Below are positions 8,232 through 51,357 of a stretch of 64,000 bases of DNA, piece after piece; position 1 is the stretch's first letter; each line of letters begins with the position of its first letter. The stretch lies in the NCBI RefSeq assembly GCF_002286985.1, contig NZ_NSKC01000001.1:248001-312000 (forward strand). Reading direction: 5' to 3'. The notes beneath the pieces are model-generated. The model made no database searches. It was not told the DNA's origin and saw only the letters and a list, made by a program, of their open reading frames with translations. Both the position numbers and the translations under genes were made by a program. This DNA is from Halorubrum salipaludis (GTDB lineage Archaea > Halobacteriota > Halobacteria > Halobacteriales > Haloferacaceae).

Positions 8232-8399
8232 CGGACGCTTTCACCCCTCGATCGCCGAGCGAGAACGGTCGGCTTCGTCGCGATCCGCTTTTCTGGCGGT
8301 CTCCCCTCGCGAAACAGCCCCTTGATCGATGACGGGAGTGGGTATAGCACGTTGGCTGATCGGTTGTTTATACGTGATCGAGTAGTGTTGCTGGCGGCT

Positions 8400-8696
8400 G
8401 TTTATAAGCGATCGACGGATCGACGGCGAAGACCTGCAAAGCCCCAGCCGGGAGGGCGGCGTACGCTCGCTGTGCTCCTCACTCGGTCGCGTTGCTCCCT
8501 CGTTGCGGTGCTTGCATCGCCTACGCCGCCCTCCCGGCTGCCCCTTTGAGTCCCACCCGCCCCGCAACCGCACAGCACCTCATACCTCCCCAGCCTCGTC
8601 GCTGGCGGCGATCGCCGCCAGCGACTCCCTCGCACGCGCTCCTCGCGGGCCGATGGCCCGCTCGGAGGCGCGCGCCGACCACAGTTCGTTTATAAA
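8400..8696 (+). repeat. Structured dispersed repeat, copy A
   Basis: Copy A of the five-copy family. Stem 1 runs 8437-8548: CAAAG, CCC, CAGCCG and GGAGGGCGGC pair with GCCGCCCTCC, CGGCTG, CCC (unpaired) and CTTTG. Hairpin 2 is a perfect 28-base palindrome at 8598-8625. Hairpin 3 is 8632-8676 with GCGGGCC/GGCCCGC at its tip. The copy ends at TTTATAAA (8689-8696). TTTATAAGCGATCGAC precedes the core. Similarity to copy C extends further, from about 8376 to 8770. It lies between the 3' ends of the convergent TRAP permease and acyl-CoA dehydrogenase genes. The whole 558-base gap holds nothing else I can support. Confidence 0.8.
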
Positions 8697-8789
8697 GGAT
8701 CATCGCGGTCGCTCACAGTCCGTTTAAATACTTTATCTCCGCCACCGATCTGCAATACTCACTCCCGATATCGCTCGCTGCGGGATGAG

Positions 8790-19668: not shown

Positions 19669-20044
19669 CTCCAAAGCCCCAGCCGCTCGGTACTATGTGA
19701 TCGACGACGCTGCGCTGAAGGTCTGCAAAGCCCCAGCCGTGAGGCGGGCGCACGCTCGCTGCGGTTCTCACTCGGTCGCTAGCTCCCTCGTTGCGGTCCT
19801 TGCGTCACCTGTGCCCGCCTCACGGCTGCCCTTTTGAGTCCCGCACAGCACCGCACGCCTCCCCAGCCTCGTCGGGCGCGTGCTTCGGGCTCCTGTCGGT
19901 CGCCCTCGCCGCGCCCGACTCCCTCGCGCGTGCTACTCGCGCCCTTATCAGGGCGCTCGGAGGCACGCAGGGCGAGAGCTCCGCTCTCGCTTGCAGCCGG
20001 CGGCGGAGCCGCCGGCGACGCCACCGCCTTTGTTCCTTTATAAG
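19669..20044 (+). repeat. Structured dispersed repeat, copy B
   Basis: Copy B. An extra half-motif CAAAGCCCCAGCCGCTCGG (19672-19690) lies before the full element. Stem 1 runs 19726-19836 with TGAGGCGGGC opposite GCCCGCCTCA. Hairpin 2 is 19871-19920 (GTCGGGCGCG/CGCGCCCGAC) with a long loop. Hairpin 3 is 19926-19968 with CGCCC/GGGCG at the tip. Unlike other copies it carries two additional small hairpins, GAGAGC/GCTCTC (19974-19989) and GCCGGCGGC/GCCGCCGGC (19996-20016), before TTTATAAG at 20037-20044. It fills the gap between the convergent antiporter and DUF302 genes. Confidence 0.75.
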
Positions 20045-39107: not shown

Positions 39108-41024
39108 ATGAACGGCACACGGATCCTGACCGTCCTGGTGGCGCTGGGGCTCGTCGTCGGGTCGGTCCCCGGCGGCGCGCTGGCGGCCGGAGCGGCTCCC
39201 GGCGGGGCGGCGGTCGACGCGAGCGACGCGTCGATCCGGTCGGCCGACGCGTCGAACTCACCGGTCCAGGCGGACGACGGAGGAACCGCCGCGGGAGAGG
39301 GGGGAGACGAGAGCGCGGTAGGGAACGCGAGCGACGGGAACGCGTCGCGGGCGGCGGTCGGCCAACAGCTCGCGACGGTGATCACCGTCACCGACGACGA
39401 GGTGAGCGACGGCGTCGCGGCGTCGTCGCTCGAGGCCGCGCTGGAGAACGGCAGCGAGGCGGAGCGTGCCACGATCCTCGCCGACCGGGCGGCCGAGCTC
39501 CGCGAGCGGGCCGACGCGGTCGTCGCCGACCACCGCGAGGCGCGCGAGGCGTACGAGGCGGGAGAGCTCGCGCCCGAGGCGTTCGCCCGGCGGCTCGCAG
39601 TGATCTCCGGGCGAGCTGGGACCGTCGACCGCGGCTTCGAGCGCCTCGACGACCGCGCCGCAGCGGTCTCCGCGCTGGAGCTGCGCGCCGCCGGCTACGA
39701 CCGGGGGGCCAACGAGGCGGCGCGCGACCGGCTCGCCCGTGCGACCGGCTCGGGAGCGAACGCGCTGCTCGCGCAGTACACCGGTGAGCGCGCCGGGGAG
39801 TTCTCGATCGATGTCGACGAGGGCGTCTCGATCGAGGTCGAGTCGGACGACGGGGAGCGCTCCCGCGAGTTCGAGCGCGACCGACCCGGCAACGGGACGT
39901 TCCGGGTGACTCACAGCGAGGCGCTGGCGGCCGCGAGGGAGCCGCTCTCGAACGGGAGCGACGGCGAGTGGACGCTCCGCTCCGTCGAGCGCGACGACGA
40001 CGGCTACTACGGGTTCGAGTTCGGCCTCCACGGCCCTGCGGCGACCGGCGAGGCCGCGGTGAGCGTCGACGGCAAGACCGGCGCAGTCTTCGAGTTCGAA
40101 GAGGAGATCGAGCCGCGCGAGGGCGCATCCGAGGGCGACGACGACGCCGACGAGGTGCCGCTGTCGATCGGCATCGTCGACGGCACCGCCGAGCCCGGGG
40201 CGACCGTCACTCTCCGGGTCACCGCCGCCGGCGAGCCGGTCGAGAACGCGACCGTCGAGGTCGGGGACCGGGACGCCGGAGCGACCGATTCGGACGGCCG
40301 GATCGCGGTGCGGCTGCCGGACGAGGACGAGGTCGAGGTCGATATCGAGGCGGGCGACCGCGAGGGAGAACTGGAGCTTGCGCTCCGATCGAGCCCGCCC
40401 GAGGTGGCCGAAGACGAGGCGATCCGCGAGCGCCTCGACGCGAGCGGGACCGTCGACAACGGCACCGTCACGGTCTCCGTGACGTACGACGGCGAGGGCG
40501 TCGACGGCGTGGCCGTCACCGCCGGCGGCGAGTCGGTCGGCGCGACCGGCCCGGACGGGACGCTCTCGTTCGACGCGCCCGGGACCGACGACGGCGGGCT
40601 GGAGATCGGGCTCGCGAAGGGGAGCTTCGAGGCCGAGATCGAGTTCGCGGTCGGGGACGGCGGCGCCCTCGAGGCGGAGAACGTCGAGATCGACGGCCGC
40701 GAGGCGGACGACGACTCCGATGAGTCGGACGATCCTGACGAAGACGACTCTGACGACTCCGACGATTCGGACGACCCCGACGACTCGGATGACTCCGACG
40801 ACCCTGACGACTCGGATGACCCTGACGACTCGGATGACCCTGACGACTCGGATGACCCCGACGACCCTGACGACTCGGATGACCCCGACGACCCTGACGA
40901 CTCGGATGACCCCGACGACTCCGACGACCCTGACGACTCCGACGACCCGGATGACCCCGACGACTCCGACGACCCGGATGACCCCGACGACTCCGACGAC
41001 CCTGACGACCCCGACGACAACTGA
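39108..41024 (+). CDS. Secreted protein with C-terminal Asp/Ser/Pro repeat tail
   Basis: A 638-residue exported protein. A Sec-type signal peptide (MNGTRILTVLVALGLVVGSVPGGALAAGA without the final part shown beyond residue 25) is followed by an Ala/Glu-rich helical region. A PepSY-like beta segment (YGFEFGLHGPAATGEAAVSVDGKTG) comes next, then two Ig/CNA-B-like repeats (TVTLRVTAAGEPVENATVEV; TVTVSVTYDGEGVDGVAVTAGG). From about residue 530 the chain is almost only Asp, Ser and Pro in DDPDDSDDP units. The tail is probably a rigid, highly charged extracellular stalk. No PGF-CTERM or membrane anchor follows it. It diverges from the membrane regulator. Confidence 0.75.
   Translation: MNGTRILTVLVALGLVVGSVPGGALAAGAAPGGAAVDASDASIRSADASNSPVQADDGGTAAGEGGDESAVGNASDGNASRAAVGQQLATVITVTDDEVSDGVAASSLEAALENGSEAERATILADRAAELRERADAVVADHREAREAYEAGELAPEAFARRLAVISGRAGTVDRGFERLDDRAAAVSALELRAAGYDRGANEAARDRLARATGSGANALLAQYTGERAGEFSIDVDEGVSIEVESDDGERSREFERDRPGNGTFRVTHSEALAAAREPLSNGSDGEWTLRSVERDDDGYYGFEFGLHGPAATGEAAVSVDGKTGAVFEFEEEIEPREGASEGDDDADEVPLSIGIVDGTAEPGATVTLRVTAAGEPVENATVEVGDRDAGATDSDGRIAVRLPDEDEVEVDIEAGDREGELELALRSSPPEVAEDEAIRERLDASGTVDNGTVTVSVTYDGEGVDGVAVTAGGESVGATGPDGTLSFDAPGTDDGGLEIGLAKGSFEAEIEFAVGDGGALEAENVEIDGREADDDSDESDDPDEDDSDDSDDSDDPDDSDDSDDPDDSDDPDDSDDPDDSDDPDDPDDSDDPDDPDDSDDPDDSDDPDDSDDPDDPDDSDDPDDPDDSDDPDDPDDN
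40725..41015 (+). repeat. Tandem 18-base coding repeat (Asp/Ser/Pro tail)
   Basis: Imperfect tandem copies of an 18-base unit, GACTCGGATGACCCTGAC, with variants that swap TCG/TCC and CCT/CCC. They encode DSDDPD units inside the secreted protein. All variation is synonymous or exchanges Ser for Pro, so the protein pattern is kept. The number of units is likely to vary by slippage. Confidence 0.8.
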
Positions 41025-41202
41025 CGGAGAGCCAAGTCCGATCCGCCGTCGCCGCGCTCCGTCGGGAGTCCGTCGACCCGCGAAACGCTGACCGCGGCGA
41101 CCCGTGGAACGCTGACCGCGCCGGCGCGCCGGGCCCGGGCGAGTGCCGTTTCCTCCCCCATTTGACCCCGTACGTTTTGGTCGTCCGACACCGTATGTAA
41201 CT

Positions 41203-45236: not shown

Positions 45237-45541
45237 GTTCATAAGCGATCGACGATGCTGCGGTGAAGACCTGCAAAGCCCCAGTCGCTGTGGGCGGCGC
45301 ACGCTCGCTGCGCTCCTCGCTCAGTCGCTTCCGCTCCTTCGCTGCGGTGCTTACGTCGCCTGCGCCGCCCACAGCGACTGCCCCTTTGAGTCCCACCCGT
45401 CCGCACCGCAACTGCACCTCACGCCTCCCCAGCCTCGCCGCTCGCGCTTCGCGCTCGCGGCGTCCCTCGCGCGTGCTCCTCGGCCGCAAAGCGGCCTCGG
45501 AGGCACGCGCCACCGCATCGTTCTTTATAAGCAATCGTCGC
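45237..45541 (+). repeat. Structured dispersed repeat, copy C
   Basis: Copy C. Stem 1 runs 45274-45388, with a perfect 20-base arm pair at 45282-45301 and 45361-45380 (CTGTGGGCGGC opposite GCCGCCCACAG). Hairpin 2 is 45436-45462 with CGCCGC/GCGGCG arms. Hairpin 3 is 45469-45510 (GCGCGTG...CACGCGC, tip GGCCGC/GCGGCC). The copy ends with TTTATAAG at 45534-45541. Similarity to copy A continues on both sides (about 45212 to 45614, including ACTCACTCCCG). The gap from 45097 to 45705 has no other feature I can support. Confidence 0.8.
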
Positions 45542-48997: not shown

Positions 48998-49294
48998 CTT
49001 ATAAACAGACCTGCGGTGGCGCGTGCCTCCGAGGCCGCTTTGCGGCCGAAGAGCACGCGCGAGGGACGCGGTGAGCGCTCGCAGAGCGCGAACCGCGAGG
49101 CTGGGGAGGTATGAGGCGCGGGGCTGTGCGGGGCGGGATTCGAAGGGGCAGCCGGGAGGCCGGCGCAGGCGACGCAAGCACCGCAGCGAAGGAGCGACAG
49201 CGACTGAGCGAGGAGCACAGCGAGCGTGCGCCGGCCTCCCGGCTGGGGCTTCGGAGAGGTCCGCGCGCTCGATCCGACGATAGCCGTTTATAAG
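48998..49294 (-). repeat. Structured dispersed repeat, copy D (inverted)
   Basis: Copy D lies on the minus strand. Stem 1 spans 49141-49253: arms 49149-49167 and 49227-49245 are a perfect 19-base inverted repeat with GGAGGCCGGC opposite GCCGGCCTCC. The basal helix is CGAAG/CTTCG instead of CAAAG/CTTTG, a compensated change. Hairpin 2 is about 49068-49096 and hairpin 3 is 49018-49060 with GCCGC/GCGGC at the tip. The copy ends (minus sense) at TTTATAAG, 48998-49005. Upstream TTTATAAG words occur at 49287 and 49350 on the + strand. It is the only copy between two genes of the same direction. Confidence 0.78.
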
Positions 49295-51022: not shown

Positions 51023-51357
51023 CCTCCGAAGCCCCAGCCGCTCGGCTATACGTAGGTGCCGTCGACGACACGGATGAGACCTCCAAAGCCCCAGCCGCGA
51101 GGGCGGCGCACACTCGTTGCGCGCCTCGCTCGTTCGCTTCGCTCACTCGCTGCGGTGCTTACGTCGTCTGCGCCGCCCTCGCGGCTGCCCCTTTGAGTCC
51201 CACCCGACCGCGCAGCCCCGCACCTCACGCCTCCCCAGCCTCGTCCCTGGCACCCTCCGTTTCGCTTCGGGAGCCAGCGACTCCCTCGCGCGTGCTCCTC
51301 GCGGCCGCCTTCGGCGGCACGCTCGGAGGCACGCGCCACCGTCGCGTTTCTTATAAG
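51023..51357 (+). repeat. Structured dispersed repeat, copy E
   Basis: Copy E. A half-motif CGAAGCCCCAGCCGCTCGG (51026-51044) precedes the full element, as in copy B. Stem 1 runs 51084-51195, with perfect 19-base arms at 51092-51110 and 51169-51187 (CGAGGGCGGC opposite GCCGCCCTCG). Hairpin 2 is 51243-51281 (CTGG...CCAG, inner CTCCG/CGGAG with mismatches). Hairpin 3 is 51288-51338 with GCGGCCGCC/GGCGGC arms. The copy ends at CTTATAAG, 51350-51357. It separates the convergent cysS and pheA genes and occupies nearly the whole gap. Confidence 0.8.

Follow-up and report, generated by a model that had tools for sequence, protein, structure and literature searches.

Five copies of an unannotated ~112-nt sequence in a stretch of Halorubrum salipaludis DNA raise the question of whether their paired arms are maintained by selection on folding. 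To answer this, we first examined the five copies in the window (the whole 64,000-nt stretch that was analyzed). An earlier note had reported that one stem position is G-C in copies A and D, C-G in copy E and T-A in copy B, that the following segment changes between copies with its complement, that the basal helix CAAAG/CTTTG becomes CGAAG/CTTCG in copy D, and that an unpaired CCC/CCC loop is kept in every copy. The observation is confirmed by the sequence: the variable pair, the segment variants GAGGGCGGC, GAGGCGGGC, GAGGCCGGC and TGTGGGCGGC with their complements, and both forms of the basal helix are present, and the CCC/CCC loop is kept in all five copies (in B the adjacent basal pair is G-T). 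The element is larger than the note described, and the region it left as loop is also structured. The copies and the parts of copy A are as follows.

8437..8548, minus strand (the likely folding strand): hairpin element, copy A
8437..8441: 5' half of the basal helix, CAAAG, pairing with 8544-8548
8544..8548: 3' half of the basal helix, CTTTG
8442..8444: CCC of the symmetric CCC/CCC internal loop (GGG/GGG on minus), opposite 8541-8543
8541..8543: CCC, other side of the symmetric loop
8445..8463: hypervariable long stem, 5' arm, pairing with 8522-8540
8522..8540: hypervariable long stem, 3' arm
8481..8503, minus strand: inner ladder of 2-bp pairs (8481-8482/8502-8503, 8485-8486/8498-8499, 8489-8490/8494-8495) separated by TC/TC mismatches (8483-8484/8500-8501, 8487-8488/8496-8497), which are GA/GA on the minus strand
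19726..19836, minus strand: hairpin element, copy B
45274..45388, minus strand: hairpin element, copy C
49141..49253, plus strand (opposite to the others): hairpin element, copy D
51084..51195, minus strand: hairpin element, copy E

To test whether this folding exceeds chance, single copies were compared with dinucleotide shuffles, and they fold better than 199-200 of 200 shuffles (z = -5.4 for copy A). A covariance model of the element (R1) finds exactly these five copies in the window, with scores of 127 (A), 109.6 (B), 112.8 (C), 115.1 (D) and 130.5 bits (E), whereas the next, non-element hit scores 21 bits (E=0.04).

The earlier note had named a covariation test that considers phylogeny as the one its interpretation would have to survive. 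To perform a test of this kind, we took from 194 distinct cores in this and other Halorubrum genomes the 52 that are exactly 112 nt long, so that no alignment algorithm is involved. A FastTree tree was built, substitutions were reconstructed by parsimony and re-scattered on the tree 100 times, and all column pairs were scored by an APC-corrected G statistic; this is our own re-implementation on one length class and not R-scape itself. Nine column pairs reached E≤0.05, all nine are pairs of the hairpin, and none lies elsewhere. Five are in the long stem (core pairs 15-98, 20-93, 21-92, 23-90 and 26-87, 1-based), and four (38-73, 45-65, 49-61 and 52-58, 0-based; the last three are 46-66, 50-62 and 53-59, 1-based) fall inside the region the note had left as loop. 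In a separate count on 51 copies, 98.9% of cells form standard pairs against 86.3% after shuffling, 24 of 39 pairs show double changes, and there are 250 double-change cells against 68 in shuffles; sliding one arm by 1-3 columns drops pairing to 27-49%.

Inspection of the inner region showed that it alternates two Watson-Crick pairs with two mismatches: 45-67 and 46-66, TC/TC, 49-63 and 50-62, TC/TC, 53-59 and 54-58 (1-based). The mismatch letters are constant in 50-51 of 52 copies, while the pairs between them change with 94-96% complementarity kept (79% at pair 45-67). CCC/CCC is constant and unpaired in all 52 copies, and the basal helix CAAAG/CTTTG is invariant in them. These results bear on the rival that the note itself had raised as a possible refutation, copying between arms, here taken as a reading without selection in which replication-associated copying between arms (quasipalindrome correction) and gene conversion between copies keep the arms complementary. 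Such copying would turn the mismatches into pairs, so copying alone does not explain the symmetry, and the fold is also kept across many genera. In favor of this rival, 8 of 194 cores are inverted relative to the outer CAAAG-CCC/CCC-CTTTG part, which is evidence of exchange between the arms, whole elements turn over at orthologous sites, and single-sided intermediates are rare. The invariant mismatches already contradict this reading, and we consider it very unlikely.

To ask which strand folds, both strands were compared. On the strand opposite to the one described in the note, the mismatches read GA/GA, a stable tandem motif. With RNA energy rules, the minus strand of the inner region folds into the covariation structure and the plus strand does not (mean -5.1 against -1.2 kcal/mol); over the whole core the values are -68.3 against -59.1 kcal/mol, with minus better in 51 of 52 copies. 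RNAalifold on the minus strand returns the same structure plus three more pairs, and R1 scores copy A at 127 bits on minus and 44 on plus. In strand-neutral pairs, GU exceeds AC 32 to 13 on the minus strand when several genera are used, although cells are not independent and within Halorubrum alone the asymmetry was mixed by stem type. With DNA parameters, minus is also favored over the whole core (50 of 52), but the inner region is nearly equal (34 of 52). Based on these results, the folding strand is likely minus, and the data do not choose between RNA and ssDNA.

To determine how widely the element occurs, exact-pattern and R1 searches were performed. The window genome has 70 exact-pattern copies and other Halorubrum genomes have up to about 120; the strict pattern occurs in 48 of 52 genomes of this genus and in none of the other 27 genera of the family, and the named genome contigs it returned were Halorubrum or an uncultured archaeon recorded as A07HR67. 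R1 finds matches at E≤0.001 in 121 of 167 genomes of the family (21 of 28 genera) and at E≤1e-6 in 210 of 341 genomes of the class (57 of 81 genera, in at least eight families). R1 E-values are rough, per-genome counts in these two R1 searches are capped, and no non-archaeal GC-rich negative control was run; specificity rests on the window and on genomes without hits. Inspected relatives from 20 genomes keep a 5' GGGYGGGACT-like flank, a basal helix GAAAG/CTTTC or GGAAG/CTTCC, in most copies a GGG/GGG loop, a variable long stem, and the internal motif GACGYAAGCACYG..GA..GA..GCGCAGCGAG. In a 70-row multi-genus alignment fitted to the model, which leans towards the structure, 95.3% of cells pair and 34 of 39 pairs show double changes. 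Named plasmids of Halorussus, Halobaculum, Halopiger, Halorientalis and further haloarchaeal genera carry copies without an annotated feature, whereas searches of viral contigs and phages by exact pattern or blastn found none.

The interpretation offered in the earlier note, selection on folding, is supported, with two corrections: the folding strand is most likely the opposite one, and the copies recombine. Across 22 orthologous sites in different species with 73-90% identical flanks, the core and its adjoining parts are no more alike than random copies (core medians 0.81 against 0.80), so elements turn over as blocks and many double changes do not count as independent compensations. Between the closest pair (flanks 92%), copy A keeps its inner loop while both arms changed in concert. 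In addition, near-identical copies occur at unrelated loci, the element is present or absent at orthologous gene junctions, and one copy lost stem 1 completely, apparently by recombination between two CCCCAGCC repeats.

To test whether the hairpin is part of a mobile unit, its surroundings were examined. In Halorubrum, the following features lie around copy A.

8324..8349, plus strand: left terminal inverted repeat of the larger Halorubrum unit (GATCGATNNCGGGAGTGRGTAT..)
8751..8776, minus strand: right terminal inverted repeat of the larger unit
8401..8407, plus strand: TTTATAA promoter-like box, common in Halorubrum copies
8599..8624: second hairpin, a perfect palindrome whose sequence varies between copies
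8632..8676: third hairpin, which varies between copies

The function of the two further palindromes is unknown. In four copies, the second hairpin contains an inserted repeat module (CACCGGACTACGTCCGGTTGCAAGCGAGAGCTTCGCTCTCGCC), a palindrome inside a palindrome. In a genome of another haloarchaeal genus (G139), three copies lie in a ~210-bp, transposon-like unit with TIRs GGTMSTGTTTAGTTA, which resemble those of IS6-type elements, and 8-bp target duplications ATTCGACC, GCCAACGG and GCCGYTCG (two perfect and one 7 of 8). Halorubrum units have different TIRs and no duplication among 29 copies. MITEs, which are non-autonomous transposons, are defined by both properties, so the G139 copies fit and the Halorubrum copies fit only in part, which leaves assignment of the element to MITEs undecided; as TIRs differ between lineages while the hairpin is shared, the hairpin is not simply one MITE family.

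We next asked where the copies lie relative to genes. Copy A lies between convergent genes for a DctM transporter and an acyl-CoA dehydrogenase, and copy E between those for cysteinyl-tRNA synthetase and prephenate dehydratase. From a simple GC3-based gene call, contexts in Halorubrum are 70 convergent, 56 co-directional (27 against 29 by strand) and 20 divergent. The lack of orientation bias speaks against a cis-acting mRNA element and is expected of a mobile element. Inverted pairs occur in several genera, as in BIMEs: an inverted partner lies within 130 nt in 10 of 56 loci of other genera, and at seven loci of other genera two hairpins are in inverted 5'-to-5' arrangement about 40-50 nt apart.

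These contexts are also compatible with a DNA-level site, in which the hairpin extrudes as a cruciform or binds a chromosome-organizing protein in convergent intergenic regions, as both orientations are used and palindromic neighbors and inverted pairs are present. However, invariant mismatches with a one-strand folding preference are not needed for a duplex-DNA binding site, and a copy number ranging from 0 to ~120 among congeners is odd for an essential architectural site, so we regard this reading as unlikely.

Another possibility is a functional structured RNA family, in which the minus strand is transcribed from its own promoter or by read-through and acts, for example, as an ncRNA, a protein-binding sponge or a 3'-end stabilizer. 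Tandem GA/GA between short helices is a typical RNA motif, and the minus-strand fold, the GU excess on that strand, the class-wide conservation of internal-loop letters and the TATA-like boxes flanking the Halorubrum copies are consistent with this. The boxes, whose function was not tested, lie on both sides of the hairpin, at a distance plausible for a promoter of plus-strand RNA; a plus-strand RNA with such a promoter was rejected, as the plus strand does not fold into the covariation structure and no such boxes are evident beside the hairpin in other genera. The absence of an evident conserved promoter in those genera, the lack of orientation bias and the inverted cores also speak against the minus-strand RNA reading, which we consider possible but doubtful; no transcript data were available. 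The element does not have the features of a kink-turn (L7Ae site), as its GA/GA steps are in symmetric 2x2 loops without the 3-nt bulge, or of an intrinsic terminator, as its flanks are AGTCCCACCC on one side and a mixed sequence on the other rather than a T-run. Rfam gave no gathering match in the window, and the best permissive hit (E=1.7) is far below its cut-off.

Our preferred reading, held tentatively, is that this is an interspersed, mobile palindromic repeat of haloarchaea, a ~112-nt imperfect hairpin selected to fold as a single strand. The conserved pairing, the invariant GGG/GGG and GA/GA mismatches on the folding strand, the many intergenic copies and the relatives in most haloarchaeal genera are demonstrated by the analysis, whereas we infer from them that the element behaves like bacterial REP/ERIC elements. 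In this view, a protein would recognize the hairpin as single-stranded nucleic acid (ssDNA during replication or transposition, or a transcript), and the element would spread with or inside MITE-like transposons and by ectopic gene conversion, which would keep reshuffling the stem sequence while the shape is retained; it would settle mostly between convergent genes, where insertion is tolerated. The lack of strand bias and the strand-specific fold, which speaks against a plain duplex site, both fit a mobile palindromic element recognized as a single strand. Against this reading, no cognate transposase or binding protein was identified, Halorubrum units show no target duplication, and no copies were found in viral contigs or phages by exact pattern or blastn; a RAYT (Y1/HUH) transposase was not sought in the genomes.

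Bacterial REP/BIME elements, which have RAYT transposases, are likewise intergenic imperfect palindromes with conserved stem mismatches, strand-specific features, inverted pairs and both orientations. However, a REP is 20-40 nt, whereas the conserved unit here is ~104-120 nt with a long hypervariable stem, and REP-like families are normally lineage-specific, so conservation across a whole class is unusual. ERIC/IRU repeats of enterobacteria are ~130-bp intergenic palindromes whose arms vary in a compensated way; sequence relation to them was not examined, and the haloarchaeal element has the GGG/GGG loop and GA/GA ladder and spans many genera. Searches of open papers found no earlier description, although one under another name cannot be excluded, as most subscription papers were not covered: sequence strings matched only primers, oligos and a bacterial CRISPR repeat, and the repetitive G-rich hairpins of Methanomicrobiaceae (PMC8044849) are different.

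A more far-reaching possibility, which we consider less likely than not, is a new class-wide haloarchaeal family of multi-copy structured RNA (or ssDNA) hairpins, built on an alternating ladder of 2-bp Watson-Crick steps and tandem GA steps and read by a dedicated protein, with a free and rapidly reshuffled stem sequence and a shape under selection in most of the class. The element appears unannotated and absent from Rfam, and as its letters change freely while its paired shape and constant mismatches are kept, something in the cell probably reads the shape; the strand-specific mismatch ladder implies an unknown reader protein or process. The element offers a direct system for separating selection on nucleic-acid shape from arm-to-arm copying, and its function can be tested because haloarchaea are genetically tractable. 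Apart from the hairpin, the window contains at 40673-41063 a nine-base tandem repeat within a long open frame encoding an aspartate-rich repetitive stretch.
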